This document shows, piece by piece, positions 5,105 to 28,507 of a stretch of DNA of 64,000 nt. The DNA is from Prochlorococcus sp. AG-347-M15. GTDB lineage: Bacteria; Cyanobacteriota; Cyanobacteriia; PCC-6307; Cyanobiaceae. The stretch is taken from the NCBI GenBank assembly GCA_003281185.1, contig QCCS01000008.1, forward strand, positions 1 through 64,000, in the 5' to 3' direction. Numbering within the stretch: position 1 is the stretch's first letter; each line of letters begins with the position of its first letter. The notes under the pieces were generated by a model that made no database searches, had not been told where the DNA came from, and worked only from the letters and a program-made list of their open reading frames with translations. The position numbers and the translations under genes were made by a program.

Positions 5105-5117
5105 TTTCTTAATAATA

Positions 5118-10957: not shown

Positions 10958-10970
10958 AAAATTTATTATT

Positions 10971-11663: not shown

Positions 11664-11669
11664 TCTAAA

Positions 11670-12455: not shown

Positions 12456-13457
12456 ATGAAACCGAAAGTTCTTGTTACTGGTGCTGATGGCTTTATAGGT
12501 TCACATCTTGTTGAATCATTATTAGAGGCAGGATACTCGGTAAGGGCTTTTTGTCTTTACAACAGTCAAGGAAACTGTGGATGGATAGATACTTTATCTA
12601 AAGAAATTAAATCAAATATAGAAATTCATCTTGGAGATATTAGGGATTATCAATCAGTTTTAGAAGGGGTAAAGGGCTGTGAGTTTTTATTTCATTTAGC
12701 TGCTTTAATTGCAATTCCATACAGTTATAAATCTCCTCAAAGTTATGTGGATACTAATATAACTGGTACATTAAATATTCTTAATGCAGCAAAAGAATTA
12801 GGCATAAAGAAATTAATCCATACCTCAACCTCAGAAACTTATGGGACTGCAAAATATGTACCAATAAATGAAGAACATCCCTTGGCTGGACAGTCTCCTT
12901 ATGCTGCGACAAAAATAGGTGCTGACCAACTTGCCCTTAGTTATTGGAGAAGTTTCTCTACTCCTATATCGATCTTGAGACCATTTAACACATATGGACC
13001 TAGGCAAAGTAATAGAGCTGTTATCCCAACAATAATCTCTCAAATTGCATCAGGGAAAAAAGAATTATCATTAGGATCAATCACACCTACAAGAGATTTT
13101 AATTTTGTAAAAGATACTTGTGATGCTTTTATAAAAGTGGCTGAAAGTGATCTCACAATAGGTAAGATTTTAAATTCTGCTAGCAATTTTGAAATTTCAA
13201 TAAGGGAGACAGCTTTATTAATTTCTAAACTTATGAACACATCTTTGGAGATAGTTTGTGAAGAGGAAAGACTGAGGCCAGAGGATTCGGAAGTAGAAAG
13301 GCTCTATGGAGATAATAAATTAATAAAGGAGTTAACTAATTGGGAACCCAGATTTGGTGGATTGAACGGATTTGAGGAAGGATTAAAAGAGACAATTAAA
13401 TGGTTTACTTACTTAGATAATCTTAAATTTTACAATCCAAATAAATACGCGATATGA
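12456..13457 (+). CDS. legB: NDP-sugar 4,6-dehydratase, LegB type
   Basis: 333 aa extended SDR that should make the 4-keto-6-deoxy intermediate from (G)DP-GlcNAc in legionaminic acid synthesis. It shows TGADGFIGSHL (about 8-18), HLAALIAIPYSY (about 83-94), STSETYG (about 126-132) and YxxxK in SPYAATK (Y about 151). The N-terminal FCLYNSQGNCGWID segment is typical of LegB rather than RmlB. LegC follows 29 bases downstream, preceded by a GGAG-containing ribosome binding site (taggagatt). Confidence 0.92.
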   Translation: MKPKVLVTGADGFIGSHLVESLLEAGYSVRAFCLYNSQGNCGWIDTLSKEIKSNIEIHLGDIRDYQSVLEGVKGCEFLFHLAALIAIPYSYKSPQSYVDTNITGTLNILNAAKELGIKKLIHTSTSETYGTAKYVPINEEHPLAGQSPYAATKIGADQLALSYWRSFSTPISILRPFNTYGPRQSNRAVIPTIISQIASGKKELSLGSITPTRDFNFVKDTCDAFIKVAESDLTIGKILNSASNFEISIRETALLISKLMNTSLEIVCEEERLRPEDSEVERLYGDNKLIKELTNWEPRFGGLNGFEEGLKETIKWFTYLDNLKFYNPNKYAI

Positions 13458-13486
13458 AAATACAATTAATTTTGTTAGGAGATTAG

Positions 13487-14644
13487 ATGAATAAATTAAG
13501 CATAGAAATTTGCGAGAGAATTAAGTCGGTTATTGGAGATTCTAAATTTGGTTTGCATGAACCATTTTTTAATTCTTTAGAAAAAGAAAATTTATCTAAT
13601 TGTATAGATTCGTCTTATGTTTCTTCCATTGGTGAATATGTAAACAGTTTTGAAAAAATGATTGAAGAGTTTACAAAATCTAAAAAGGCTATTGCCGTAG
13701 TGAATGGTACTTCCGCACTGCATTTAGCTTTAAAAGTATCTGGTATTAAACCAGATGAGGAAATTATATGCCCATCATTAACATTTGTAGCCACTGCAAA
13801 CGCTATTAGTTACATGGATGCATTGCCCCACTTTGTCGATGTTAATGAAAAAACGCTTGGAATTGATCCATTAGCTTTAGAAAATTGGTTGGATAAAATA
13901 ATAATCAAAAAAAAAGGTAAAAGCATAAATAAAAATACTGGGAGAATTGTGTCAGCAATAATTCCTATGCACACCTTTGGTCACCCTTTAGAAATTAATT
14001 CAATAGTCAAAATAGCAGAAAAGTATAATCTTATTGTCATAGAAGATGCTGCTGAATCACTAGGTAGTCTTTACGAGGGTAAACACACTGGTACATTCGG
14101 CAGAATTGGTGTGTTGAGTTTTAATGGAAATAAAATAGTTACAACTGGAGGCGGTGGAGCACTGATAACAAACGATTTAGAAGTGGCTAGCTTAGCCAAA
14201 CATTTATCAAGCACTGCAAAAGTTGAACATAAATGGAAATTAATTCATAATCAAATTGGTTTTAATTACAGAATGCCAAATTTAAATGCATCTATTGGCT
14301 GTGCACAAATGAAGAAATTACCATCTTTTATAGAATCAAAAAGAAATCTTTTTCTTAAATATAGAGAAGTCTTTAAATCTCTTTTAGGGGTAAGAATTTT
14401 TTCAGAGCCAGATAATTCGAGAAGTAATTATTGGTTGCAAACCTTAATTCTTGATAAGGAGCATGAAAGCGAACTAGAAAATATTCTTGAAGTTACTAAT
14501 AAAGAAGGACTAATGACAAGGCCTAGTTGGGAACTAATGCATCATCTTCAAATGTATAAGAATTGCCCAAGAGCTCCACTTCCAAATGCAGAGTCATTAG
14601 CTAAACGTATAATTAACATACCTAGCAGTCCATTCTTAGTATGA
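13487..14644 (+). CDS. legC: PLP-dependent sugar aminotransferase, LegC type
   Basis: 385 aa DegT/DnrJ/EryC1 aminotransferase installing the C4 amino group on the LegB product. The PLP Schiff-base lysine is K216 in SFNGNKIVTTGGGG. Other landmarks are NGTSALHLAL (73-82), PSLTFVATANA (96-106) and IEDAAESLGS (185-194). The N-terminus with FGLHEPFFNSLE is diagnostic of the LegC subfamily. The stop codon overlaps the next start (ATGA), so translation is probably coupled to the acetyltransferase. Confidence 0.95.
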   Translation: MNKLSIEICERIKSVIGDSKFGLHEPFFNSLEKENLSNCIDSSYVSSIGEYVNSFEKMIEEFTKSKKAIAVVNGTSALHLALKVSGIKPDEEIICPSLTFVATANAISYMDALPHFVDVNEKTLGIDPLALENWLDKIIIKKKGKSINKNTGRIVSAIIPMHTFGHPLEINSIVKIAEKYNLIVIEDAAESLGSLYEGKHTGTFGRIGVLSFNGNKIVTTGGGGALITNDLEVASLAKHLSSTAKVEHKWKLIHNQIGFNYRMPNLNASIGCAQMKKLPSFIESKRNLFLKYREVFKSLLGVRIFSEPDNSRSNYWLQTLILDKEHESELENILEVTNKEGLMTRPSWELMHHLQMYKNCPRAPLPNAESLAKRIINIPSSPFLV

Positions 14645-15261
14645 ACTCTGTTATTCTCTTAGGAAGTGGAGGCCATTGCAAATCTTGTATAGATGTAATT
14701 GAAAAAAGCAATTCTTTTAAAATTAAAGGAATTATAGATAAGCCTAATCAGGTTAATAAAGAATTTATGGGATATAAGATTTTGGGAAATGATAATGAAT
14801 TACAAGATCTTTTTCTTGAAAATGATCACGGCTTAATTTGCGTTGGTCAAATTAAAAATCCAACAGTGCGAATCCGATTATTTAATCTACTTCAAGAAAA
14901 AGGTATAAGTATGGCAACTATTAAGTCTATTTATTCTGTTATTTCAGATCACACTAAAATAAATATGGGTACAATAGTTATGAATAATTCAGTAATTAAT
15001 GCGGGTTCTATAATTGGTGCAAACTGCATTATTAATACCAATTCAACGATAGAACATGATGTGATAATCAAAGATCATTGTCATATTTCTACTGGAGTAA
15101 TTTTAAATGGAGGGGTAGAAGTAGGAAGAGGAAGTTTTATTGGAAGTGGAGCAATTATCAAACAGGGTATTAAAATTGGAGATGAAGTTGTAGTATCAGC
15201 TGGAGAAGTGGTTTCAAAAAATATTCCATCAAATACAACTTATAAAACTATCAAAAATTAA
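14641..15261 (+). CDS. NeuD/PglD-type sugar O/N-acetyltransferase (left-handed beta-helix)
   Basis: 206 aa protein with an N-terminal Rossmann-like PglD_N domain (ILLGSGGHCKSCIDVI, about 5-20) and a C-terminal hexapeptide-repeat region (about 95-195) that includes HDVIIKDHCHISTG, where the PglD/NeuD catalytic His lies. By position it probably N-acetylates the 4-amino sugar made by LegC, the step performed by LegH in Campylobacter, or it O-acetylates the finished nonulosonic acid like NeuD. The first role is favoured because no other acetyltransferase lies in the cassette. Confidence 0.88.
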   Translation: MNSVILLGSGGHCKSCIDVIEKSNSFKIKGIIDKPNQVNKEFMGYKILGNDNELQDLFLENDHGLICVGQIKNPTVRIRLFNLLQEKGISMATIKSIYSVISDHTKINMGTIVMNNSVINAGSIIGANCIINTNSTIEHDVIIKDHCHISTGVILNGGVEVGRGSFIGSGAIIKQGIKIGDEVVVSAGEVVSKNIPSNTTYKTIKN

Positions 15262-15268
15262 AAATAAG

Positions 15269-16273
15269 ATGAATTCTAATACTTTTATTATTGCCGAAGC
15301 AGGGGTCAACCATAATGGAGATCTAAATATTGCAAAAAAACTTATAGATATTGCAGCTGAGTCAGGAGCAGATGCAATAAAATTTCAGACTTTCAAGGCA
15401 GAAAATTTAGTAACGCTAAAAGCCAAAAGAGCTAATTATCAAAAAGAAAATAACAAACGCAGTTCTCAATATTCAATGTTGAAAAATCTAGAACTTAGCT
15501 ATGAAAACCATCTTGAACTTTTAAATTATACAAATAAAAATAATATAATTTTTATGTCCTCTGGATTCGATTTAGAGAGTAACTCAATTCTAAATTCCCT
15601 GGGACTAGAAATTTTTAAGATACCATCTGGAGAGATAAATAACCTTCAATATCTAAGACAAATAGGTTCATTTCAGAAAAGAACCATATTATCTACTGGA
15701 ATATCAACTCTTGAAGAAATCGAGAAAGCATTAGAAATTTTAGTTGCCAATGGATGCAAACTTTCTGAAATTGTTGTTCTTCATTGTAATTCTGAATATC
15801 CAACTCCTATTGATCATGTAAATCTAAATGCCATGCTTACAATTAAAAAAGAATTTAATGTAGAAGTAGGTTATTCTGACCATACAATTGGGATTGAAGT
15901 CGCAATAGCTGCAGTAGCTCTTGGCGCTAAAGTAATAGAAAAACATTTAACATTAGATAATAAAATGTCTGGTCCTGATCATAAATCAAGTATTGAACCA
16001 AAAGAATTTATCAATATGGTTAAATGCATAAGAAATGTTGAAAAATGTTTAGGAAGTTCTCAAAAGATTCCGAGCCCAAGTGAAATCAAGAATAAAGTCT
16101 TAATAAGAAAATCAATTGTTGCTTCAAAAAGAATTAAACCTGGAGAAACATTTGACTATGAAAATATTACTTTTAAGAGACCAGCATCAGGTTTATCTCC
16201 AATGATGATTGATGAAATAATAGGTAAAATCTCAACAAAAGAATATAAAAAAGATGATTTAATTTGTTTATGA
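15269..16273 (+). CDS. legI: Legionaminic acid synthase, NeuB family
   Basis: Condenses phosphoenolpyruvate with the 2,4-diacetamido-2,4,6-trideoxymannose made by LegG. At 334 aa it matches NeuB/LegI/PseI length. The N-terminal TIM barrel begins FIIAEAGVNHNGD (about 6-18), with IKFQTFKAE, STGISTLEEI and VGYSDHTIG (about 205-213). The C-terminal SAF/antifreeze-like domain (about 275-334) includes RKSIVASKRIKPGE. Its stop overlaps the LegG start. It is assigned as LegI rather than NeuB because of the LegB and LegC neighbours. Confidence 0.94.
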   Translation: MNSNTFIIAEAGVNHNGDLNIAKKLIDIAAESGADAIKFQTFKAENLVTLKAKRANYQKENNKRSSQYSMLKNLELSYENHLELLNYTNKNNIIFMSSGFDLESNSILNSLGLEIFKIPSGEINNLQYLRQIGSFQKRTILSTGISTLEEIEKALEILVANGCKLSEIVVLHCNSEYPTPIDHVNLNAMLTIKKEFNVEVGYSDHTIGIEVAIAAVALGAKVIEKHLTLDNKMSGPDHKSSIEPKEFINMVKCIRNVEKCLGSSQKIPSPSEIKNKVLIRKSIVASKRIKPGETFDYENITFKRPASGLSPMMIDEIIGKISTKEYKKDDLICL

Positions 16274-17427
16274 AGAAAATATGCGTAGTAACTGGATCAA
16301 GAGCTGAATACGGATTACTTAGGTGGGTATTGGAAGGAATAAATAAATCAAAATTATTAGATCTTCAACTAATTGTCACAGGTATGCATTTACTTCCAGA
16401 ATTTGGTTTAACAGTAAATTCTATAGAAAAGGATGGATTTTATATCGATAAAAAAATTGAGATGCTTCTTAGTTCCGATACTCCAGTTGGGATTACGAAA
16501 TCAATGGGTATTGGATTAATTGGATTCGCAGAAGCTTTAAACGAATTAAAGCCAGATTTACTTTTAGTCTTAGGTGACAGATTTGAAATTCTTACAGCAG
16601 CAAACGCTGCCTTATTAGCAAGAATCCCTATCGCTCACATTCATGGAGGAGAATCAACAACAGGAGCTATAGATGAAGCAATAAGACATAGTATCACCAA
16701 GATGTCACATATACATTTTGTAGCATCTAGAACTTACAAAAATAGAGTAATACAACTAGGAGAGCATCCTGATTCTGTTTATACTGTTGGGGGTTTGGGT
16801 ATAGATAATTTTATAAAATTAAATTTATTAGATAAAAATTCATTAGAAAAAGAGATAGAATTCAAACTTAAAAAAATAAATCTTCTAATTACTTTTCATC
16901 CCGTAACATTAGAAAATAATACAAGTAAATATCAAATGCGCGAGTTGCTATGTTCTCTTACAGATCTTCAAGAGACAGGTTTAATTTTTACAATGCCAAA
17001 TGCGGATACTGATAGCAAAGTCCTTTTTGAGATGATTCAAGATTTTGTACAAAAAAACAAAAATGCTAAAGTTTTCTCTTCTCTTGGACAACTCAGATAT
17101 TTATCTTGTATTAAATATGTTGATGCAGTAATTGGGAACTCTTCGAGTGGACTAATTGAAGTTCCTTATCTAAAAAAACCTACTATAAATATTGGAGATA
17201 GACAGAAGGGGCGTTTAAAGGCAGATTCAGTAATAGAATGCGAACCCGAAAGATTATCAATAAATAAGGCTATAAAAAAAGCATTGTCAAATAGTTTTAA
17301 AACAAAAATAAAAGACTGTATTAATCCTTATGGTGATGGTGGTGGAAGTGAAAAAATAGTAAAAATAATAGAGGGGTATAATCTAAATAACCTTTTAAAA
17401 AAGAACTTTTACAATATTCTCCAATAA
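16270..17427 (+). CDS. legG: Hydrolysing NDP-GlcNAc-type 2-epimerase, NeuC/LegG family
   Basis: Epimerises at C2 and removes the nucleotide to release the 2,4-diacetamido-2,4,6-trideoxymannose precursor. The 385 aa GT-B-like fold shows VTGSRAEYGLL (about 6-16), VLGDRFEIL, AHIHGGESTTGAIDE (about 120-134) and GNSSSGLIEVP (about 292-302). I chose ATG 16270 (MKKICVV), which overlaps the LegI stop as ATGA, instead of the in-frame TTG two codons earlier. It is the last + strand gene of the cassette; the PtmE-like gene converges from the right. Confidence 0.94.
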   Translation: MKKICVVTGSRAEYGLLRWVLEGINKSKLLDLQLIVTGMHLLPEFGLTVNSIEKDGFYIDKKIEMLLSSDTPVGITKSMGIGLIGFAEALNELKPDLLLVLGDRFEILTAANAALLARIPIAHIHGGESTTGAIDEAIRHSITKMSHIHFVASRTYKNRVIQLGEHPDSVYTVGGLGIDNFIKLNLLDKNSLEKEIEFKLKKINLLITFHPVTLENNTSKYQMRELLCSLTDLQETGLIFTMPNADTDSKVLFEMIQDFVQKNKNAKVFSSLGQLRYLSCIKYVDAVIGNSSSGLIEVPYLKKPTINIGDRQKGRLKADSVIECEPERLSINKAIKKALSNSFKTKIKDCINPYGDGGGSEKIVKIIEGYNLNNLLKKNFYNILQ

Positions 17428-17569
17428 TTGAATTTAGTTATTAATTTTTTCGAAATATTAATTAATTTCATCTCTAAATTGCCAAATAATTAAAATAATA
17501 AATTTGAATAAATATAAAATCAATAAATGAAATTTTTTGGATTTTTTATAAAAATCAATCAATATTTAA

Positions 17570-18676
17570 TTAGTTATATTTTCTCCAATTTTTTGAGGCT
17601 TCATCTAAAGTCTCAGGCCTCCCAACATCTAACCAGTTTTCATAGATTGGACAAATATGAATTTTATGACCCAATTCATTAGACATCTTAATCAAATCTG
17701 TCATATCAAGAAATTCTTCATAATTAATTAGATTTAGCAATTCCGGATTAATTACATAAATACCAGCATTAACTTGAAAAACAACCGTTGGCTTTTCATC
17801 AAGGCCTTGAAATATAATTCCATCGGAATTAAACACTCCAAAAGGAATATCTACCTTATAGTTTCTAGAACATATTGTGGCCATAGACTTATTTTTTTCA
17901 TGGAATGCTAAAAGCAATTTGTAATCTAAACCAGTAAGAACATCACTATTTATAACTAAAATAGGAAGGTCTATTTTATCCTTTATCAAACAAAGTGATC
18001 CTGCAGTTCCACAAGGTTTATTTTCTATAAGGTATTTTATTTTCACACCCCATTTTTTTCCATCCTGAAAATAATCAATTATCTGATCTTTTAAATAATT
18101 TACAGAAATATAGAAATTACTAAACCCACTTTTAATGCTCTTTTCCAGCAACCTTTCTAAAATAGGCTTACCTCCTATTTTAAGCATTGGTTTCGGGCAA
18201 GTTCCTGTATGGGGCATTAGTCTTTTTCCTTTGCCTCCAGCCATAAAGACTATGGGGTTAGGAATATTTTTATATTTAGGATTTTTATCCTCATAATAAA
18301 TATCTACTATTTTTTTGTTCTTATTTAATACTGGTATATGAGTAGCAACTTTTTCCTCTAAAAAAATTTTTGCTTTAGTTATCTCTTCAATATAAACAAA
18401 TTTATAGTCTTTCCTCATACAACTAACACATTTACTCTCTAGATTATTACCTTTTAATAAAAACCTTCTAATGTCTCCATCAGTAATAACTCCTAAAAGA
18501 ATCTTCTGAGCATCAATAACAAAAGCAATCTGTTGACCAGATTCATCTATTTTTTTTAAAACATCAATAATACTAGATTCTGGAGAGACAAAAAATGACT
18601 CTAAAAGTTTCATATATAATGATTTCTCTATCTTAAATTTACTTAATAAAAGGGTAATTTTAGGGATCTTTGACAA
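17570..18676 (-). CDS. CBS-domain sugar-1-phosphate nucleotidyltransferase, PtmE-like
   Basis: 368 aa fusion of a CBS pair (about residues 27-135; FVIDAQKILLGVITDGDIRRFL) and a nucleotidyltransferase (FMAGGKGKRLMPHT, about 142-155; NSDVLTG, about 240-246). This is the PtmE architecture, reported in Campylobacter as the GlcN-1-phosphate guanylyltransferase that opens the GDP-linked legionaminic acid route. The N-terminus is about 20 residues longer than I would expect; Met22 (18613) is an alternative start. It faces the rest of the cassette on the opposite strand and is divergent from the amidotransferase, with an inverted repeat in the shared upstream region. GTP specificity is inferred. Confidence 0.88.
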   Translation of the reverse strand: MSKIPKITLLLSKFKIEKSLYMKLLESFFVSPESSIIDVLKKIDESGQQIAFVIDAQKILLGVITDGDIRRFLLKGNNLESKCVSCMRKDYKFVYIEEITKAKIFLEEKVATHIPVLNKNKKIVDIYYEDKNPKYKNIPNPIVFMAGGKGKRLMPHTGTCPKPMLKIGGKPILERLLEKSIKSGFSNFYISVNYLKDQIIDYFQDGKKWGVKIKYLIENKPCGTAGSLCLIKDKIDLPILVINSDVLTGLDYKLLLAFHEKNKSMATICSRNYKVDIPFGVFNSDGIIFQGLDEKPTVVFQVNAGIYVINPELLNLINYEEFLDMTDLIKMSNELGHKIHICPIYENWLDVGRPETLDEASKNWRKYN

Positions 18677-19035
18677 ATAGATTATAAATTATTAACTATA
18701 TAAGTAATCTAATTTTCTTATAAGCAATAAGGATTTAAGTTTGTAATTGATTATTAAATTTAAATCTTTAATTAAAAGATTAACATAGAGAAGTTTTAAA
18801 AAATAAATCCTTATAAAGGATAATCAATATACAAACTTAAATGAATATTCTTGATTATTAACCACTAGATTTGGATAAGAAAAACTAATTATATAAAAGA
18901 TGAATTTGAAAAAACCATAAATCAGTTTTTTTTATTTATGAAAGATTATTTAAGAAAATTTATTTATTTTCGATGCTTAAAGTTAAAAACAAATGGGTTG
19001 TTTTAAAATATAATATGTGCACTACACCCATTTTT
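18677..19035. promoter_or_regulatory. Divergent intergenic region with long imperfect inverted repeat
   Basis: The 359 bases between the PtmE-like gene and the amidotransferase gene should hold promoters for both. I could not assign confident -35/-10 boxes in sequence this AT-rich. The region contains the inverted repeat listed at 18733-18842 and a second, shorter self-complementary pair (18727-18736 with 18805-18814). No coding region is convincing here. Confidence 0.5.
18733..18842. repeat. Inverted repeat, 22/23-base arms around a 65-base spacer
   Basis: The arm at 18733-18754 (starting atttaagtttgta) is the reverse complement of 18820-18842 except for one inserted base. Arms of this length and identity are not expected often by chance even at about 80% local A+T. 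The flanking ataaggattt (18727-18736) also pairs with 18805-18814, so alternative folds are possible. It lies between divergent genes; it could be an operator, an mRNA structure or the remnant of a small mobile element. I cannot tell which. Confidence 0.6.
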
Positions 19036-20148
19036 ATGAAGGCAATAAATTTTTGTACTAGGTGTCTAACAATGTCTACAAGACCTAGAATCTCTTTTAA
19101 TAATGAAGGTGTATGCAACGCATGTTTGTGGACAGAAAAAAAGAAAACTATTAATTGGTCTGAGAGAGAGAAAGAATTGATTGATTTACTTGATAAGCAT
19201 AGATCTAAGGAAGGTAATTTTGACTGTCTAGTTCCAGTAAGTGGAGGTAAAGATGGATCTTACGTTGCTTACAACTTAAAACATAAATATAATATGAACC
19301 CACTTTGTATAACGGTAACTCCTCCATTACCAACAAAACTTGGGGAAGAAAATTTAAGAGAATTTGTAAAGAGTGGTTATAGTCATTTATCTATAAACCC
19401 ACCTTATGAAGCAATGAGATTACTTAATAAAAAAGGATTTGTAGAAATGGGATTTCCTTATTTTGGCTGGTTAACAGCTATTTTATCTATCCCGGTAAGG
19501 ATAGCTAATCAATTTGATATTGGTATTACTTTTTATGGAGAAGATGGAGAAGTTGAATATGGTGGTTCATCTGAAACCGAAAAAAAGCCTATATTCGATA
19601 GCCTTTATATGCAAAAAATATATTTGGAGTCTGGATATGAAAAAATTATCAAGAATTCGAATATTTCTAGGCAAGATCGTTTATTTTTTGAGTTCCTCGA
19701 TCAAGAAAAGTTAAACAAAAACTCAATTAAATTCACACATTGGTCATATTTTGAAAACTGGGATCCTTATAGAAACTATTTGGTCGCGAAAGAATACTGC
19801 GGTTTAAAAGAAGCAGAAAATAATAATCAAGGTACATTTACTAATTTTGCACAGAATGATCAACATCTTTATAGCCTACATACTTATCTTATGTATTTAA
19901 AGTTTGGTTTTGGTAGGGCGAATCAAGATGCTTGTATTGAAATAAGAAGAGGAGCTATGGATAGAGATCAAGCAAAAAACTTAGTGAGAATGTTTGATGG
20001 TACTTTCTCTCATGATTCAATTGAAATTTATCTTGATTATTATCAAATGACAAGAATAGAATTTTATGATGTCTTAGATAAATGGGCAAATAAATCACTA
20101 TTTGAAAAAAAAGGAGATAAATGGGAACCAATTTTTGAAATAAACTAA
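19036..20148 (+). CDS. N-acetyl-sugar amidotransferase (PseA/WbpG/PtmG family)
   Basis: 370 aa ATP-pyrophosphatase (PP-loop) enzyme that converts an N-acetyl group of a nonulosonic acid or amino sugar to an acetamidino group. Near the N-terminus CTRCLTMSTRP and CNACLW provide four zinc-type cysteines, and VPVSGGKDGS is the PP-loop. I chose ATG 19036 (MKAINFCTRC), the family's normal start; an in-frame ATG at 18973 would add 21 residues. It is followed by HisH-like and HisF-like genes, the same trio as pseA-hisH-hisF in Campylobacter, where the pair is thought to supply ammonia. Substrate here is probably (CMP-)legionaminic acid. Confidence 0.92.
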   Translation: MKAINFCTRCLTMSTRPRISFNNEGVCNACLWTEKKKTINWSEREKELIDLLDKHRSKEGNFDCLVPVSGGKDGSYVAYNLKHKYNMNPLCITVTPPLPTKLGEENLREFVKSGYSHLSINPPYEAMRLLNKKGFVEMGFPYFGWLTAILSIPVRIANQFDIGITFYGEDGEVEYGGSSETEKKPIFDSLYMQKIYLESGYEKIIKNSNISRQDRLFFEFLDQEKLNKNSIKFTHWSYFENWDPYRNYLVAKEYCGLKEAENNNQGTFTNFAQNDQHLYSLHTYLMYLKFGFGRANQDACIEIRRGAMDRDQAKNLVRMFDGTFSHDSIEIYLDYYQMTRIEFYDVLDKWANKSLFEKKGDKWEPIFEIN

Positions 20149-20152
20149 AAAA

Positions 20153-20779
20153 TTGAATAATCCAAAAAAAATAGTTTTAATTGATTATGGTATGGGTAAT
20201 ACTTGGTCAGTTATAAGCGCCATAAAATATTTAGGTTTTGATTGTGAATTAAGCAATAGTATAGAAAAAATATCAAATGCAGATTATATTATTTTGCCAG
20301 GGGTAGGTTCCTTTAAAAAAGGTATTCAGAATTTAAAAGATTTGGGCTTATTTACTTTACTTAAAAATAAAAAATTTCTGAAAGATAAAAAGATATTAGG
20401 GATATGTTTAGGATTCCAACTACTAGGGATCTCAAGTACTGAAGAAGGTTATGAAAATGGTTTGAATTTAATACCATTAAAAGTAGATAAGTTTAAATTT
20501 AATGTAAACGACCTAAAAATTCCACATATAGGATTTAATTCAGTTCATTTTCATAGTAAAGATAAATTATTTTTAGGATTAAAAAATGAATCAGATTTTT
20601 ATTTTGTTCATTCATATAGATTTAGATATGATTCTCTACAAGGCTTTATAGCTTACTGCAATTATGGGGAGAAATTCATAGCTGCTTATCACAAGGATAA
20701 TATTTATGGTACGCAATTTCATCCAGAAAAAAGCCAAAATAATGGATTAATTCTTTTGAAAAACTTTTTTGAGATCTAA
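20153..20779 (+). CDS. HisH-like glutamine amidotransferase (NulO amidination partner)
   Basis: 208 aa class I glutaminase releasing ammonia from glutamine. The catalytic triad is visible: C85 in GICLGFQLL, H190 and E192 in GTQFHPEKSQ. The oxyanion-strand region PGVGSF is at about 49-54. The TTG start lies four bases after the amidotransferase stop, and the HisF-like gene starts two bases after its own stop. The location and its partner's lost catalytic Asp argue that it serves the PseA-type enzyme rather than histidine synthesis. Confidence 0.93.
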   Translation: MNNPKKIVLIDYGMGNTWSVISAIKYLGFDCELSNSIEKISNADYIILPGVGSFKKGIQNLKDLGLFTLLKNKKFLKDKKILGICLGFQLLGISSTEEGYENGLNLIPLKVDKFKFNVNDLKIPHIGFNSVHFHSKDKLFLGLKNESDFYFVHSYRFRYDSLQGFIAYCNYGEKFIAAYHKDNIYGTQFHPEKSQNNGLILLKNFFEI

Positions 20780-20781
20780 TA

Positions 20782-21549
20782 ATGTTAAAAAAAAGATTAA
20801 TTTTTACTCTATTATATGATTCAGGTTATTTTTCTCTAAGTAGGAATTTCAGGTTACAGAGGGTAGGTAATCTAAAATGGTTAAAGGAAAATTATAATTT
20901 TGAATACATCTCTAGATATATTGATGAATTAATAGTTCTTGATGTATCAAAAGAAAAAAGAGATATAAAAAAATTTAGTAATACTCTAAAAGAACTAACA
21001 GAAAAGATTTTTGTCCCTATTGCATCTGGAGGAGGTATTAGAAAATTTGAACATGCAAAAATCTTATTGGACTCTGGTGCCGATAAAGTAATAATGAATA
21101 CATCTATTTTTAAGGATAATGATCTTATTAGTAAATTATCTAGTGAATTTGGAAGGCAGTGTATTGTAGGATCACTTGACATAAAGAAAGAAAAAGATGG
21201 CTACCATTTCTATATTTCAAATGGGAAAGAGTGTGTTAAAAAATCTATTGATCAAATTGATAATATATTAAAACAATGTCCACTAGGAGAAATTATCCTT
21301 CACTCAATAGATAGGGATGGAACAGGGCAAGGTTATGACCTTGATTCACTATCTTTAATCAATAAAGAAATTAATATTCCAATAATAATTTCGGGAGGCG
21401 CTGGAAATAGTAAACATTTTATTGAGGGATTAAGTCATGATATGGTAGATGCGGCATCAAGTTCTCACTTGTTTAATTTTGTGGGAGATGGCCTAAAGAA
21501 AGCTAGAGAAAAAGCAATTGAAAATAATGTTCTGCTTGCAAAGTGGTAG
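20782..21549 (+). CDS. HisF-like ammonia-channel protein, cyclase-inactive
   Basis: 255 aa (beta/alpha)8 barrel of the HisF family. Compared with true HisF, whose N-terminus reads KRIIxCLDVKDG, this one reads KRLIFTLLYDSG: the catalytic Asp at position 11 is Leu. The second catalytic Asp is kept (SLDIKK, about 133), as are SIDRDGTGQGYD and the phosphate-site SGGAG (about 210-214). It therefore probably cannot make imidazole glycerol phosphate but can still pass ammonia from the HisH-like partner to the amidotransferase. This matches the PseA-associated HisF group. Confidence 0.9.
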   Translation: MLKKRLIFTLLYDSGYFSLSRNFRLQRVGNLKWLKENYNFEYISRYIDELIVLDVSKEKRDIKKFSNTLKELTEKIFVPIASGGGIRKFEHAKILLDSGADKVIMNTSIFKDNDLISKLSSEFGRQCIVGSLDIKKEKDGYHFYISNGKECVKKSIDQIDNILKQCPLGEIILHSIDRDGTGQGYDLDSLSLINKEINIPIIISGGAGNSKHFIEGLSHDMVDAASSSHLFNFVGDGLKKAREKAIENNVLLAKW

Positions 21550-21728: not shown

Positions 21729-22751
21729 TTGAATAATATATTTTTGATCGCTTCCCCTCTACAAGTTATATGTGCTTATGAATTCTCTAAAAAATACTCA
21801 GCTGATAAAAATATAATATGTCCAATTTATATACAGGGTGCATCTCTTAGAAATAAACAGATAAAAAATACAATAGAATTTTTCAAATTTGAAAATATTG
21901 AAAATATAAATAAAGGTAAGCCTTTTTTTAAAAAATTGAATGAAATTTATGCAATTTGTCAATTTATTTTTTTAAGGATAAAACTTGGTGGTGGTAATTA
22001 TCGTTTAATCTTTGGTGACTTTAGAGATAAGACAATGCATCTCTCAAGATTATTTTTTAAACCTAAAGAGACTTTTATAATTGATGATGGTTTGGCTTCT
22101 TACCTTGCGGGTAAGAATTTTCTATCAAAATCTATTTTCTTCCCTAAAGTAAATAAACTCGAAGAAATCCTACTAAGAATTTCATGTCAATATAAATATC
22201 TATTTGAAAGTAGAGTAAATCTTTTTTCGGTCTATTCTGAGTTACTAGTTGGTGATGTTTTCTTGCAAAATCATTTTTCATCAGTAAGAAAAAAAATTAA
22301 GAATAAAAATAAAAAGTTTTGTGAGAATATGGCTTTTTATATAGGGACAAAATTATCAGAACGTGGAGTTTTGACTTTAAAAGATGAGATTAAAATACTC
22401 AGATCTTCTCTTGTTTATATTCGATCAATAGGCAAAGAATGTACATACTTTGCAAAAAGATCTACATCAAAAAAGAAGCTCGATTTAATAGAAGAACTTG
22501 GATATAAAATATATATTCCTGAGTATCCACTTGAATTATATTTAATGAATTCAGAATATATTCCATCATTGATATGTGGTTTTGGTTCTTCAGTTTTCAG
22601 TAATTTACCCAAATTATTTCCTAATCTTAAATCTATAATTTTACAATATCCAATAAAAGTTTTTAGAAAAAAATCAGACAGATATGAGTACAATACCTTT
22701 CTTGAGATATTTAAAAATCAGTCTATTGAAATAATCAATATTGATATTTAA
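21729..22751 (+). CDS. Sialyltransferase/polysialyltransferase-like glycosyltransferase (GT52/polyST type)
   Basis: 340 aa protein. The N-terminal NNIFLIASPLQVICAYEF matches the start of bacterial GT52 and polysialyltransferase-like proteins. It carries an IDDG at 118-121 (the D/E-D/E-G motif), an EYPLEL segment at about 266-271 in the place of the HP motif, and a GFGSSVFSNLP run at about 280-290 in the place of the Ser-Ser/Thr motif. The TTG start follows a 179-base gap after the HisF-like gene. Being next to a legionaminic acid pathway, it is the best candidate for the CMP-legionaminic acid transferase. Specificity is inferred from motifs and context. Confidence 0.7.
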   Translation: MNNIFLIASPLQVICAYEFSKKYSADKNIICPIYIQGASLRNKQIKNTIEFFKFENIENINKGKPFFKKLNEIYAICQFIFLRIKLGGGNYRLIFGDFRDKTMHLSRLFFKPKETFIIDDGLASYLAGKNFLSKSIFFPKVNKLEEILLRISCQYKYLFESRVNLFSVYSELLVGDVFLQNHFSSVRKKIKNKNKKFCENMAFYIGTKLSERGVLTLKDEIKILRSSLVYIRSIGKECTYFAKRSTSKKKLDLIEELGYKIYIPEYPLELYLMNSEYIPSLICGFGSSVFSNLPKLFPNLKSIILQYPIKVFRKKSDRYEYNTFLEIFKNQSIEIINIDI

Positions 22752-22909: not shown

Positions 22910-24538
22910 ATGATGAAAAATATTCCAGAAAAAATTAACCCAAAAATTATTGACTGTACTCTTCGTGATGGTGGTTACTATAATAATTGGGACTTTGATA
23001 TAGAACTAATAAGGAAATATATTCATGCAGTAGTGAGGGCAGGGGTAGATTATATCGAATTAGGATATAGGACCAAAAATAATTCAGATTATTTCGGACC
23101 TCTAGCATATACAACTGAAAGTTTCATTGAAGAATTAAATCTTAATAATTCAATAAAACTCGGAGTAATGATTAATTGTACTGAATTAATTCAAAGCAAA
23201 AATCTTGAAACACACATAAGGTCCTTATTTCCGTTTTCTGAAAAAACTTCAAAAATTTCTTTAGTTAGGATTGCTTGCAAATTTAATGAGATTGAAATAG
23301 CATTCAAAGCTGGTAAATTATTAAAAAGTTACGGATTTAAAGTTTGTATAAATTTGATGCAAATATCTTCAATAAAAGAAAAAGAACTGGAAGATTTCAG
23401 TAAATATGGCAATCTTTATAAACCTGATGTTCTTTTTATCGGAGATAGTACTGGAACACTTGTCCCTGAGAATATTAAAAATATATACAACTCATTAAGG
23501 ATTCATTGGAAAGGAGAAATTGGTATTCATGCGCACGATAACATGCGTAGGGCTTTAATAAATACAATTGAAGCACATAAATCAGGATTCTTATGGCTTG
23601 ATAGTACTGTTCAAGGGATGGGGAGAGGGCCAGGCAATACAAAGACAGAAGACTTAGTATTTGAAATAAAGGATATAAATAATTCAAATATTGACTTTTT
23701 GCCTCTTATAGATTTAGTACAGAATGATTTTTACAATTTAAAGCAAAAATATAGATGGGGTTCAAATCCCTTCTATTATCTTTCAGGTAAAAATGAGTTG
23801 CATCCAACTTATATACAAAATATGCTAGATGATAAATCCTACCGAAATGAGGATATATACGCTTCTATTAAAGAATTAACGAAGAATAAAAGCATAAACT
23901 TTAAAGAACACAAATTACAAAATAGCAGGATTTATTATAATGATGAAATTGAGGGAGAGTGGTCGCCTATTGATGATTTTTTAGACAAAGATGTCCTTCT
24001 TTTAGCACCTGGGAAATCTATTAATATGCATAAAAATGCAATTCAGAAATTCATCAAGAAATTCTCCCCTTTAGTTGTCGCTTTAAACATTCTAAATGAT
24101 ATTGAAGATGATTTAATCAACTATAGGATTGCTTGTCATCCTATACGTATATTCTCAGATTTACCAAAATATAAATTATTTAAACAGCCCTTAATCACTC
24201 CCCAAAAACAACTTATAAAATGGTCACAAAAATCTCTTGAATTTAAAATATTGGATTTTGGCATTAAAGTTAAAGAAAATATATTTGAATTTAAAAAAAA
24301 GTCCTGCACAATTCCCTCACCTCTTGTAATGGCATATTCATTAGCTATGCTTAATTCTGGGAAAGCAAAAAAAATTTATTGCGCAGGATTCGATGGTTAT
24401 GAAGATGGAGATCCAAGACAATCTGAAGTTGACTCGATTTGGGAAGCATATTTTAGATGTCCTAATTATGTAGAAATTATTTCCCTTACTAATACTCTTC
24501 ATAAAATTCCAAAAAGTAGTGTTTATAGTTTTTTATAG
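22910..24538 (+). CDS. DRE-TIM aldolase fused to a Maf/DUF115-like C-terminal domain
   Basis: 542 aa two-domain protein. Residues about 10-330 form a metal-dependent HMG-CoA-lyase/4-hydroxy-2-oxovalerate-aldolase-like barrel: CTLRDGGY (16-23), IELGYR (49-54), IHAHDN (206-211, metal His207/His209) and GMGRGPGNT (236-244). Residues about 355-542 look like a DUF115/Maf/GT42-type Rossmann fold: VLLLAPGKSI, then a SPLVMAYSLAML helix and IYCAGFDGYEDGD. It is followed nine bases later by a KdsB-like cytidylyltransferase and then a HAD phosphatase. Known aldolases of this class add or remove pyruvate, so it could form a 2-keto-3-deoxy acid sugar. That function, and the C-terminal fold, are inference. 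Confidence 0.75.
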   Translation: MMKNIPEKINPKIIDCTLRDGGYYNNWDFDIELIRKYIHAVVRAGVDYIELGYRTKNNSDYFGPLAYTTESFIEELNLNNSIKLGVMINCTELIQSKNLETHIRSLFPFSEKTSKISLVRIACKFNEIEIAFKAGKLLKSYGFKVCINLMQISSIKEKELEDFSKYGNLYKPDVLFIGDSTGTLVPENIKNIYNSLRIHWKGEIGIHAHDNMRRALINTIEAHKSGFLWLDSTVQGMGRGPGNTKTEDLVFEIKDINNSNIDFLPLIDLVQNDFYNLKQKYRWGSNPFYYLSGKNELHPTYIQNMLDDKSYRNEDIYASIKELTKNKSINFKEHKLQNSRIYYNDEIEGEWSPIDDFLDKDVLLLAPGKSINMHKNAIQKFIKKFSPLVVALNILNDIEDDLINYRIACHPIRIFSDLPKYKLFKQPLITPQKQLIKWSQKSLEFKILDFGIKVKENIFEFKKKSCTIPSPLVMAYSLAMLNSGKAKKIYCAGFDGYEDGDPRQSEVDSIWEAYFRCPNYVEIISLTNTLHKIPKSSVYSFL

Positions 24539-24547
24539 TTTTATGTT

Positions 24548-25297
24548 ATGAGAGATACGTGTATTATAATTCCTGCTAGGTTCAAATCTAGCAGGTTCCC
24601 AGGGAAACCTTTAATTAAAATCTTAGAAAAATCTATGATTATTAGAGTTGCAGAATTAGCTTGTAAAACTATTGAAAAAAAAGATATATATATTGCCACT
24701 GATGACGATAAGATTAAAAAAGAAGTACTAGATAATGGATTTCAATGTATTAAAACCTTAAAAGAAGCCTTAACTGGAACTGACCGAGTAGCTTTAGCAG
24801 CTAAAAACCTAGACTATAAATTTTATATAAATATACAAGGAGACGAGCCCTTAATTGAACCAAAAGATATTCAAAAATGTATTAATTTAAAAAAGAGTTT
24901 TCCTGAATATGTCATTAATGGTTATTGTCATATTAGTAAAAATGAAAAAGTTATTTCTAAAAATATTCCAAAATTAGTTACTGATAAAAATAATAATCTT
25001 TTATATATTTCGAGAGGTGTTATTCCATCATTAAAAGAGAATGAATTAATTAATCCTAATTACTACAAAAAGCAAGTCTGCATATATGGCTTTACAAAAA
25101 AAGAATTGGAAAAATTTCATAGTTTTGGGAAAAAAACGGATTTAGAAGCATTAGAAGATATAGAAATTTTAAGATTTCTAGAGCTAGGTATGAAAGTAAA
25201 AATGTTTAAATGCGAAGAAGGTTCTTTGGCTGTTGATGTTCCTTCTGACGTGGAAAAGGTAGAAAAAGCACTCATTTATAAAATGAACAATAAATGA
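24548..25297 (+). CDS. KdsB-like CMP-ulosonic acid synthetase
   Basis: 249 aa cytidylyltransferase of the KdsB (CMP-Kdo synthetase) family. Landmarks in order are IPARFKSSRFPGKPL (about 7-21), ATDDDKI, TGTDRVALA (about 77-85), NIQGDEPLIEP (about 96-106) and VDVPSDVEKVEKAL near the C-terminus. The stop overlaps the next start (ATGA). The linked aldolase and HAD phosphatase suggest a dedicated acid-sugar route; whether the substrate is Kdo itself cannot be told because no KdsA-like synthase is in the window. Confidence 0.92.
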   Translation: MRDTCIIIPARFKSSRFPGKPLIKILEKSMIIRVAELACKTIEKKDIYIATDDDKIKKEVLDNGFQCIKTLKEALTGTDRVALAAKNLDYKFYINIQGDEPLIEPKDIQKCINLKKSFPEYVINGYCHISKNEKVISKNIPKLVTDKNNNLLYISRGVIPSLKENELINPNYYKKQVCIYGFTKKELEKFHSFGKKTDLEALEDIEILRFLELGMKVKMFKCEEGSLAVDVPSDVEKVEKALIYKMNNK

Positions 25298-25944
25298 AAA
25301 ATTATTCACATCTTTTTTTTGATTGCGACGGTGTAATATTAAATTCAAATAAAGTTAAAACAAACGCTTTTTATAGAATTGCTCTTAATTATGGTGAAGA
25401 ATCAGCAAAAAAACTTGTAAATTACCATATTAAAAATGGAGGAATTTCTAGATACAAAAAAATAAAATTTTTTCAAAAAAATATTATTAAAAATAATGAT
25501 TTGAATCTTTACGAAAAATTAGTTAATGAATATTCAGAAATTTTAAAAAAAGAACTTTTAGAGTCAGAGATATCTAAGGGGATTTTTAAAATAAAAGAAT
25601 TTTTTCCCTATTCTAAATTAGCTGTAATTTCAGGTTCTGATCAGAAGGAATTATTATGGTTATTTAAGAAACTTAGAATTAATCATATATTTGATGAAGG
25701 TATATTTGGAAGCCCAAAATCTAAAGAAGAAATTTTTAACCAGATTTTCATGAATTCTAATGATATAGTATCTTCAATTTATCTTGGTGATAGTAAATAT
25801 GACTATGAAGTTTCCAAGATTTATGGAATAGATTTTGCTTTTATAACTGAATGGACTGAGGTTAAAGATTGGGTTATTTTCACCAAAGAAAATAATATCA
25901 AATCATATCCTAATATTTCAGAATTTTTAAATAGCTATAAGTAA
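25294..25944 (+). CDS. HAD-family phosphatase (beta-phosphoglucomutase-like subfamily)
   Basis: 216 aa HAD hydrolase. Motif I is FFDCDGVILNS (about 8-18), motif II lies in VISGSD (about 112-117) and motif IV in IYLGDSKYDYEV (about 166-177). It has a helical C1 cap (about 20-90), so it belongs to the Gph/beta-PGM subgroup, not to capless KdsC. It is translationally coupled to the KdsB-like gene. It may remove phosphate from an acid-sugar phosphate before CMP activation. Confidence 0.85.
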   Translation: MKNYSHLFFDCDGVILNSNKVKTNAFYRIALNYGEESAKKLVNYHIKNGGISRYKKIKFFQKNIIKNNDLNLYEKLVNEYSEILKKELLESEISKGIFKIKEFFPYSKLAVISGSDQKELLWLFKKLRINHIFDEGIFGSPKSKEEIFNQIFMNSNDIVSSIYLGDSKYDYEVSKIYGIDFAFITEWTEVKDWVIFTKENNIKSYPNISEFLNSYK

Positions 25945-25971: not shown

Positions 25972-27081
25972 ATGAATAAAAAAAGAAACATTTATATAAT
26001 TCCTAGCTTAGGTTATGGAGGCGCAGAGTCATTTTTGCTAAGACTTATTCCATACATGGAAGAAGAGAATATAGTAATAACTCTCTATGATACACAATAT
26101 GATAAACAAAGAATTAAGGATAAAAAATTAAAATATATAACTCTTGATCCAGTAAGAACTTCAATTTCAGATATAAAAAGTTTTTTGAAATTAATCTTTA
26201 GTTTAAATGTCAACGACACAATATTATCTTGGCTTTATATAGCTGACTTATTTGCTTCTATTTTAAAGATATTATTTTTTTGGAAAAAATTTAAAATTAT
26301 TTGGAATGTTAGAAATACAGTTATTAAAATAAATGAATATTCATTACTTGCGTTTATAGCATTTTCTATCTCAAGAATTTTTTTTATGGAAATTCCTAAA
26401 AGTATAATTTTTAATTCAAGAGAATCAATGTTGCAACATTTGAAGAAAGGTTATAGTAAGAAAAAGTCGTCTGTTATTTATAATGGATTTAAAAGATATG
26501 TACCTATAAAAAAAATTAATAAAAATAAATTTAACATTATTTATGTAGCAAGATATCATCCCCAAAAAAACCATAAATTATTATTTAAATCAATAGAAAT
26601 TTTTAAACTAAATTATAATATAAATTTCAAGTTACACCTTGTCGGTAAAGGTCTAAATACAAAAAATAAAATGCTCATAAAGCATTTAAAATATCTAAAT
26701 ATTTACGAAAATATAATTCTTTACGATCTTATTAGTCCAATTTCTGTACACGAATTATTTTCCAAAAGTGATATTTCTCTTCTTCTTTCCTCATATGGAG
26801 AAAGCTTTCCAAATGTTATTGCTGAAGCTATGATGTACGGAACATTTCCAATTGCTACAAACATTGGGGATACAAAATCAATAATTAAAAGTTTTGGTGA
26901 AACAGTTTCAAAATATACTACTGCTGAAAAAATAGCCACCTTAATTTATAAATATTATAATTTAAAAAATAAAAATTTTGAAAAGTGGAAGAAGCAAAAA
27001 AAAGAATGTCAAGTTTTTGCTGAAAATAGATTTAGCATTGAAAGTTCAGCAAATAAATTTAAAAAAATCATCTATTTTTAA
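25972..27081 (+). CDS. Glycosyltransferase, GT4 family
   Basis: 369 aa retaining GT-B glycosyltransferase. The N-terminal loop YIIPSLGYGGAESFLLRL (about 8-25) and the C-terminal NIIYVARYHPQKNHKLL (about 184-200) and ESFPNVIAEAMMYGTFPIA (about 277-295) are standard GT4 motifs; the E(x7)E is E277/E285. A preceding 27-base gap separates it from the phosphatase. Donor and linkage unknown. Confidence 0.92.
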   Translation: MNKKRNIYIIPSLGYGGAESFLLRLIPYMEEENIVITLYDTQYDKQRIKDKKLKYITLDPVRTSISDIKSFLKLIFSLNVNDTILSWLYIADLFASILKILFFWKKFKIIWNVRNTVIKINEYSLLAFIAFSISRIFFMEIPKSIIFNSRESMLQHLKKGYSKKKSSVIYNGFKRYVPIKKINKNKFNIIYVARYHPQKNHKLLFKSIEIFKLNYNINFKLHLVGKGLNTKNKMLIKHLKYLNIYENIILYDLISPISVHELFSKSDISLLLSSYGESFPNVIAEAMMYGTFPIATNIGDTKSIIKSFGETVSKYTTAEKIATLIYKYYNLKNKNFEKWKKQKKECQVFAENRFSIESSANKFKKIIYF

Positions 27082-27142: not shown

Positions 27143-28507
27143 ATGGTTGCTTCTAATAAAAAGTTAATTTTGTACGAACTCAATGAAGTGCCCCTAAAAC
27201 TATTAAAACATTATTCTGAAGTAAGACCTCATTCAAATATTTCTTATTTATTAAATCAAGGGAATATTTTAAAAACCACAACAGATGATAAAGGTGAGTT
27301 ACATCCTTGGAGTACTTGGCCAACAGTTCATAGAGGTGTAACTAATGAAACTCATAAGATAAATTTTATTAATCAGGACTTATCAATTGCTAAAAAGTGG
27401 CCGCCTATATGGGAAAAATTAGCAAGAACAAAAATCTCAATTGGGATTTTTGGATCTCTCCAATCCTTTCCACCATACATTCATGAAAATACAAAGTTTT
27501 ACTTACCTGATACTTTTTCTCCTACTCCTGAAGCTTATCCAAAAGATTTAGAAGCTTTTCAGAAATTCAACTTGAATATTGTAAATAAAAATAAAGCACT
27601 TCCTGGTAAGTATTCCTTTAATGACCTTAAAAATTTTGCAAAATTATTAATTCTTAGATATATAAAATTTAATTCAATTTTAAGAATAATATCACACCTA
27701 ATAAAGGAATCAATTTATGGAAAATATCGAAGAAGAAGATCACTTATGCAAGCTATACTTTCCTTCGATCTTTATGAGAAATACCTTTTAAAAAAACAAC
27801 CAGAATTCTCAACATATTTTACGAATCATGTAGCAGGAATGATGCATAGATATTGGGATTACTTATTTCATCCTAAAACCAATTCAAGAGAAAGTTTATT
27901 TAATAAAAATTCAATTATTAAGGCAATGGATATTTCAGATAGACATATAGGAAAATTATTAAAAATATCAAAATCACATAATTATGACTTACTTATACTT
28001 AGCAGTATGGGTCAAGATTCAATAGATTGGAAAGATTGGGTTCCTGAATTATTTATAGGTAATATTAAGAAACTTATAAAGGTATTAAATTTAGAAATGA
28101 ATAACTATAAATTATTACCTGCTATGCACCCAGATCTTTGCATTGAGTGTATGGATAAAAAGTCAAAAATAGAACTAGAAAAAAATATTAATAATATCAA
28201 ATCAATTAATGGTGAATCAATCCTTCCAGTTAGATATAAAAACCAAGGATTAAAAGTAAACATTTCTATTCAAAGATCTTCAGTAACCGTAAAATGTAAA
28301 TTTATAGTTCTAAACGGTAAAAAAATCCCATTAGAATCACTTGGAATAAAAGTTATCAAAAGAGATAAACCAACTGGCTATCATGTTAAAGATGGGACAT
28401 TAATGTTTAAAGGATCTAATTTAGAGAAAATATTTAAAAATAGGGATAAAATTATAAATACAACAAAAATACATAATATTATTCTTAAGTTCTTTAGTAT
28501 TAAATAA
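27143..28507 (+). CDS. Alkaline-phosphatase-superfamily protein with degenerate metal site
   Basis: 454 aa protein resembling type I phosphodiesterase/nucleotide pyrophosphatase family members found in polysaccharide loci. It starts LILYELNEVP (8-17) and has a Ser/Thr-rich nucleophile-like region HPWSTWPTVHRG (54-65). The later metal-binding motif of the superfamily, usually SDHG, reads LSSMGQDS (about 290-297), so canonical metal ligands appear lost. A MHPD stretch (about 331-334) may contribute. It could modify or recognise a phosphorylated glycan; catalysis is uncertain. It is followed six bases later by an SDR. Confidence 0.6.
   Translation: MVASNKKLILYELNEVPLKLLKHYSEVRPHSNISYLLNQGNILKTTTDDKGELHPWSTWPTVHRGVTNETHKINFINQDLSIAKKWPPIWEKLARTKISIGIFGSLQSFPPYIHENTKFYLPDTFSPTPEAYPKDLEAFQKFNLNIVNKNKALPGKYSFNDLKNFAKLLILRYIKFNSILRIISHLIKESIYGKYRRRRSLMQAILSFDLYEKYLLKKQPEFSTYFTNHVAGMMHRYWDYLFHPKTNSRESLFNKNSIIKAMDISDRHIGKLLKISKSHNYDLLILSSMGQDSIDWKDWVPELFIGNIKKLIKVLNLEMNNYKLLPAMHPDLCIECMDKKSKIELEKNINNIKSINGESILPVRYKNQGLKVNISIQRSSVTVKCKFIVLNGKKIPLESLGIKVIKRDKPTGYHVKDGTLMFKGSNLEKIFKNRDKIINTTKIHNIILKFFSIK

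Follow-up and report, generated by a model that had tools for sequence, protein, structure and literature searches.

Which acid sugar does a cell make when it encodes a KdsB-like synthetase next to an aldolase that is unrelated to KdsA? To our knowledge, the sugars activated by cytidine monophosphate (CMP) that are 2-keto acids, namely 3-deoxy-D-manno-oct-2-ulosonic acid (Kdo) and the sialic, legionaminic and pseudaminic acids, are all made by synthases of the KdsA or NeuB type, which use phosphoenolpyruvate (PEP). The question is raised by three genes in contig QCCS01000008.1 of Prochlorococcus sp. AG-347-M15, of which positions 1 to 64,000 were analyzed (64,000 nucleotides in all, hereafter the window). 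Comparison of these genes and of their predicted products with those of other genomes suggests that they form a compact pathway whose product is probably a 2-ulosonic acid activated by CMP, different from Kdo and used in a surface polysaccharide. The cassette is made up as follows:

22910-24538, plus strand: two-domain aldolase of 542 aa, a DRE-TIM/HMGL-like barrel with a C-terminal, putatively MptE/DUF115-like domain (PF00682, PDB 3dxi, AlphaFold, Foldseek)
22940-23677, plus strand: catalytic barrel core of the aldolase, residues 11-256, with metal ligands D20, H207 and H209, and with R19 and Y23 (PF00682, residue conservation)
23933-24535, plus strand: C-terminal, putatively MptE/DUF115-like domain of the aldolase, residues 342-542, of a sialyltransferase-related fold (AlphaFold, Foldseek, PF01973 in relatives)
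24548-25297, plus strand: KdsB-like CMP-ulosonate synthetase of 249 aa, with the cassette-type signature Q176, C178, I207 (PF02348, NF009905, alignment, tree)
25294-25297, plus strand: ATGA start/stop overlap of synthetase and phosphatase
25294-25944, plus strand: capped HAD phosphatase of 216 aa, with residues D10, D12, S113, K144, D166 and D170 conserved (PF13419)

The gene order, the strands, the 9-base gap between the aldolase and KdsB-like genes and the ATGA overlap of the latter with the HAD gene, all described in a first-pass annotation of the window, were borne out by a check of the open reading frames (ORFs). The linkage is not peculiar to this genome. A GTDB scan that used the aldolase alone as query provided nearly all of the 79 loci of our neighborhood analysis; within 3 kb of the aldolase, 42 of them have a KdsB-like gene (starting at a median of 4 bp after the aldolase), 42 a HAD gene, and 22 a NeuA-like cytidylyltransferase gene, as checked with Pfam. 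The HAD gene precedes kdsB in L069, L074, L077 and L079. At least six phyla are represented among the named carriers (Cyanobacteriota, Pseudomonadota, Bacillota, Bacteroidota, Omnitrophota, and Myxococcota). The adjacency of aldolase and synthetase is far above chance: adjacent synthetases number about 60 of 78, with a binomial probability near 1e-145 at an assumed rate of about 0.2% of genes. Within the genus, the aldolase occurs in 12 of 266 genomes, mostly with an adjoining KdsB-like or NeuA-like gene and a HAD gene. Plasmid and cultured-phage collections yielded only three full-length relatives, all on Leisingera plasmids, two of which have the three genes in the same order as the window. 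Finally, the divergences of the three proteins are correlated over 34 complete cassettes (r 0.63-0.76, p 2e-4). The co-occurrence of aldolase, KdsB-like and HAD genes suspected at first sight is therefore conserved over phyla, and it extends to gene fusions.

These fusions were found in IMG/VR, where 62 contigs encode the barrel and 38 have barrel and KdsB domain in one ORF (fusion loci L127-L132, L135-L156, L158-L164, L181, and L184). Twenty of the 38 fusion proteins are distinct at less than 90% mutual identity (median about 50%), and all 20 conserve both the catalytic residues of the barrel and the cassette-type signature QVCIY or a one-residue variant of it; the MptE/DUF115-like domain is missing, with KdsB in its place. 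A T4-type Gp23 capsid gene lies on 5 of the 15 fusion contigs tested, including the three largest, and contigs that lack it may be fragments; the terminase profile PF17289 found nothing in the viral contigs. Among 78 proteins neighboring the fusions, 8 are MptE-like and 2 belong to GT29, and four of the viral contigs (L161-L163 and L184) also hold NeuA- and NeuB-like genes. The largest contigs are T4-like, and the carriers would be uncultured large phages of this kind, apparently equipped with their own DUF115/GT29-type transferases; in the cultured-phage records and PHROGs searched, the fusion was not found. The same barrel-KdsB architecture is present on a 4.2-kb single-cell Bacteroidota contig (L102), which may itself be viral.

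The identity of the neighboring synthetase indicates what kind of product the aldolase would deliver. KdsB-like and NeuA-like partners alternate on the aldolase tree, a quick tree with support from the Shimodaira–Hasegawa-like approximate likelihood ratio test only, and its well-supported branches force at least 5 or 6 changes; the label "none" carried by L002, L029, L040, and L059 on this tree is an artefact of ORF picking. In Halomonas, the aldolases of L033 (NeuA-like partner) and L034 (KdsB-like partner) are 89% identical, and that of L036 (NeuA-like partner) is 85-86% identical to both. Since two ulosonate-activating families stand beside nearly the same aldolase, the product must suit both, which points to a 2-ulosonic acid; on the evidence of these sequences the aldolase would lead to such an acid, and the swap is hard to explain otherwise. 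We regard it as quite likely that the cassette makes a CMP-ulosonate. In two loci with a NeuA-like gene and a HAD gene (L193 and L198, in G287), the aldolase reads as two overlapping ORFs, possibly a frameshift or a split gene.

Is this acid Kdo? The KdsB-like protein matches PF02348 (Cytidylyltransferase, E 2e-40) and passes the cut-off of NCBIfam NF009905 (268 vs. 255 bits), but it stays below that of the kdsB equivalog TIGR00466 (133.8 vs. 155.2 bits). Three residues that are constant in housekeeping KdsB, and whose side chains presumably touch Kdo, are changed in the cassette proteins (Escherichia coli numbering: H181Q in 45/46, G183C in 43/46, and Q211I in 43/46). His181, Gly183, and Gln211 lie within the Kdo-binding domain, and the residues that serve cytidine triphosphate and metal binding, R10, R15, K19, D100, and D235, are retained in cassette KdsBs (residue roles and domain assignment: PMC3149649). 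In a phylogenetic tree the cassette KdsBs split from housekeeping KdsBs, including that of E. coli and a KdsA-linked copy of Bacillus, with support of 100/99; the adjacent copy of L082 is an exception, and the farther copies of L043, L067, L068, and L076 group with the housekeeping side. In the same tree, the named neighbor L056, along with the AT richness and size of the genome, points to Prochlorococcus as the host of the window. The cassette protein is well supported as a CMP synthetase by the chemistry of its family, its specificity is predicted to be altered, and a sugar other than Kdo is the quite probable product.

The distribution of KdsA bears on the same point. With TIGR01362 at E ≤ 0.001, no KdsA match was obtained in the 1.48-Mb host genome, window included, which is 87% complete. 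KdsA was not found in 7 of 16 carrier genomes, several of them incomplete (that of the window, two others of its genus, a Prochlorococcus single cell, Rossellomorea, Microthrix, and a metagenome-assembled genome of Bacillus), and is present in the other nine. Because of these seven genomes, and of the separate clade with its changed residues, the KdsB-like enzyme cannot depend in all carriers on a KdsA encoded elsewhere; we thus rejected this possibility, which had been put forward as one of the cases that would overturn the proposal. There is another way to Kdo, in which the cassette would join pyruvate to D-arabinose or its 5-phosphate, so that CMP-Kdo of the usual kind would be formed and the novelty would be confined to the first enzyme. 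We consider this unlikely: it would agree with the KdsB annotation above one NCBIfam cut-off, with the lack of a KdsA match in the window genome and with a gene order parallel to KdsA-KdsB-KdsC, but the cassette KdsBs form their own clade with altered conserved positions, NeuA-type synthetases can stand in for them, and many carriers already hold KdsA and a housekeeping KdsB. Bacillus ISL-41 even keeps both, its KdsA-KdsB pair being located a few kb from the cassette.

As for the phosphatase, its match to PF13419 (HAD_2, E 6e-10) and a score far below the cut-off of the KdsC profile TIGR01670, a C0 HAD (18.9 vs. 107 bits), agree with its initial description as a capped HAD and not KdsC.

The aldolase matches PF00682 (HMGL-like) over residues 11-256 (E 1e-22), and this match together with the barrel fold places it in the DRE-TIM/HMGL-like superfamily. 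Both motifs on which the first-pass annotation relied, TLRDG and HAHDN, are present, and TIGR01362 (KdsA, Kdo-8-P synthase) is absent from its NCBIfam matches. Its closest solved relative by sequence is PDB 3dxi (E 1e-50), followed by 4-hydroxy-2-oxovalerate aldolases of the DmpG type; its AlphaFold model (predicted local distance difference test, pLDDT, of 94) gave the same order in Foldseek (3dxi, 5e-23; DmpG-type aldolases, about 1e-17). Aligned to 1nvm, R19, D20, H207, and H209 correspond to Arg17, Asp18, His200, and His202 of DmpG and are invariant in 59 relatives, whereas the position of DmpG His21 is taken by Tyr23, invariant in the 59 relatives and in 20/20 distinct viral fusions. In DmpG, the arginine, the metal ligands and His21 all have catalytic roles. 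The aldolase does not reach the cut-off of the DmpG equivalog TIGR03217 (91 vs. 286 bits), and among window ORFs searched with Pfam and NCBIfam no DmpF-type aldehyde dehydrogenase partner was recognized near the cassette. Barrel relatives without a second domain occur in rhizobia and Paraburkholderia (L003, L004, L097, and L099) and in Streptomyces (L090 and L091); the gene neighbors of the two on annotated plasmids (L003 and L004) are SDR, HAD-IA and aminotransferase genes, and the pathway is probably a different one.

The aldolase is a barrel fused to a second, probably MptE/DUF115-like domain, as deduced from the separate fold of residues 342-542 (pLDDT 97), from modest Foldseek matches to SteA (1.6e-4) and the MptE pterin kinase (0.013), from PF01973 (MptE-like/DUF115), which matches 26 of 56 relatives (best E-value 7e-7) but not the copy in the window, and from weak profile matches to MptE and the sialyltransferase CstII. 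The "aldolase fusion" of the first-pass annotation thus corresponds to a distinct, confidently predicted domain. In transferases this fold binds CMP-ulosonates; the domain may serve to bind the pathway product or may itself have transferase activity.

In the pathway that we infer, including the keto-acid donor, the aldehyde, the order of phosphatase and synthetase, the identity of the sugar, and the role of the C-terminal domain, the DmpG-like barrel would form the phosphate of a 2-keto-3-deoxy (ulosonic) acid from an α-keto acid and an aldehyde, for which pyruvate and a phosphorylated aldose are the most likely candidates. Pyruvate as donor and an aldose or aldose phosphate as acceptor are suggested by the kinship of the barrel with DmpG and by the presence of a phosphatase, and we regard a pyruvate aldol addition to a phospho-aldose as a reasonably likely first step. 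The capped HAD would then take off the phosphate, and the KdsB-like enzyme, or its NeuA-like counterpart in other genomes, would couple the ulosonic acid to CMP, a chemistry well supported by the family. Lastly, a glycosyltransferase would add the sugar to a glycan; in other genomes the cassette often has genes of the GT29, polysialyltransferase or DUF115 type as neighbors. As a proposal, the aldolase-first route advanced from the sequence of the window gains support from the conserved linkage, the fusions, and the seven of 16 carriers in which KdsA was not found.

Several observations weigh against this pathway. The catalytic His21 of DmpG is replaced by an invariant Tyr, and therefore mechanism or substrate differs. 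In five loci (L031, L033, L043, L067, and L068), the gene of an extra class II aldolase of the HpcH/HpaI type separates the barrel gene from that of the CMP synthetase, and this enzyme might be the one that actually forms the ulosonate in these loci. A HAD or any CMP synthetase is lacking near the aldolase in some loci; in L057, L060, and L092, from SAR11, the next gene is instead of the B12-binding radical SAM type, and neither synthetase nor phosphatase was found in the vicinity. No aldehyde-making gene was identified, and functions are predicted for all members of the cassette families. An arrangement resembling that of SAR11 was seen in L075 and L080. The first two of these points would fit a barrel that catalyzes another DRE-TIM reaction, such as an acyl-CoA condensation or the use of a donor such as hydroxypyruvate, with a branched or 3-hydroxy acid sugar as the compound to be activated, the superfamily including both aldolases and acyl-CoA condensing enzymes. 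However, the nearest characterized relatives, by sequence as by fold, are DmpG-type aldolases, and a pyruvate aldol reaction leads straight to the 2-ulosonic acid that enzymes of the KdsB and NeuA families require; we consider the alternative reaction improbable. Strongly disfavored is an origin of the linkage in the mere shuffling of genes in surface-polysaccharide islands, with three proteins serving different sugars: most loci do lie in or near glycan clusters and the gene order varies in some, but the median spacing of +4 bp, the correlated divergence, the phage aldolase-KdsB fusions, and the cassette-specific KdsB clade all contradict it. The pathway to a CMP-ulosonate other than Kdo remains our preferred interpretation. 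In its broadest form, it would be a widespread new way to CMP-ulosonic acids, in which a metal-dependent aldolase, a capped phosphatase and a CMP synthetase of altered specificity provide a surface acid sugar that is neither Kdo nor a known nonulosonic acid, and in which uncultured T4-like phages have the aldolase and the synthetase combined in a single bifunctional polypeptide; to this full statement we give an even chance.

The glycan context of the cassette includes a near-complete cluster of the legionaminic-acid type upstream, in the same glycan region of the window (9980-18676), and a glycosyltransferase gene immediately 3':

10971: NeuA-like gene of the legionaminic type
12456: LegB
13487: LegC
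14641: NeuD-type gene
15269: NeuB
16264: NeuC
17570, minus strand: PtmE-like CBS/nucleotidyltransferase of the legionaminic cluster
25972-27081, plus strand: GT4-type glycosyltransferase (PF00534)

We rejected the possibility that the KdsB-like gene serves the legionaminic genes, as that set has its own NeuA and does not need it. The GT4-type glycosyltransferase, which has relatives at the corresponding position in two further genomes of the genus (L124 and L125), is a possible, if weak, candidate for the user of the CMP sugar. Among 88 proteins immediately beside cassettes, 5 belong to GT29, 5 are polysialyltransferase-like, and 8 are MptE-like, as against at most two of each, outside the listed ranks, among 88 farther genes of the same loci taken as control. 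Maf, a DUF115 transferase, is reported to be able to transfer N-acetylneuraminic acid and Kdo (PMC11339370). The protein encoded just upstream of the cassette (21729-22751), checked as a CMP-sugar transferase, had no Pfam or PDB match; it contains an IDDG motif reminiscent of polysialyltransferase-type enzymes. On the other flank, the protein of 27143-28507 is without any Pfam match. Just upstream of the cassette, a WbuX N-acetyl sugar amidotransferase with HisH-/HisF-like partners (18973-21549) suggests an amidino-type sugar, and within the polysaccharide region a transketolase split into two overlapping genes (5058-6829) could supply an unusual sugar phosphate.

If correct, our interpretation would assign a role to barrels represented so far only by the structure of a "putative aldolase", and would account for a class of KdsB-annotated genes in genomes that lack KdsA. 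It would also let one expect a further acid sugar on cells of marine cyanobacteria, SAR11, proteobacteria, and bacilli. The fused enzyme of phages, close to transferases of the CMP-sugar type, suggests a remodeling of host or virion glycans. The first-pass annotation knew of no characterized pathway of this form, and in a literature search we found no description of the cassette, most subscription journals being outside its scope; nor did studies of the capsules of Cobetia and Vibrio, or a review on marine carbohydrate antigens, give a structural lead to the sugar.

Comparison with known systems delimits what is new. KdsA-KdsC-KdsB follows the same logic of carbon–carbon bond formation to a keto acid, dephosphorylation and CMP activation, and its KdsB is homologous to the cassette synthetase; the cassette, however, has a DRE-TIM metallolyase instead of the PEP-using KdsA, a capped HAD_2 instead of KdsC, and a KdsB with changed residues. 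The NeuB/NeuA and NANS-NANP-CMAS routes likewise give a CMP-activated 2-ulosonic acid and have GT29, polysialyltransferase or DUF115-type transferases nearby, but the cassette is devoid of NeuB, the condensation being predicted for the aldolase family. The phosphorylated sialic-acid route (NANS-NANP-CMAS) also employs a capped HAD phosphatase. DmpG/BphI, the 4-hydroxy-2-oxovalerate aldolase, is the closest characterized barrel and shares the Arg, the Asp and the two metal-binding His; the cassette aldolase differs from it by the Tyr in place of His21, the lack of a DmpF partner, the extra MptE/DUF115-like or KdsB domain, and the glycan context. PDB 3dxi, the N-terminal domain of BVU_2661 of Bacteroides vulgatus, belongs to the same barrel family; only this domain was solved, and the entry, titled "putative aldolase", assigns no function. 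The Maf flagellin glycosyltransferases, which we take to share the DUF115/MptE-like fold of the C-terminal domain, and the GT42 enzyme CstII, related to it by a weak profile match, are stand-alone transferases without an aldolase fusion. CMP-ulosonate biosynthesis as such is thus known, and what would be new is the unrelated enzyme at its start.

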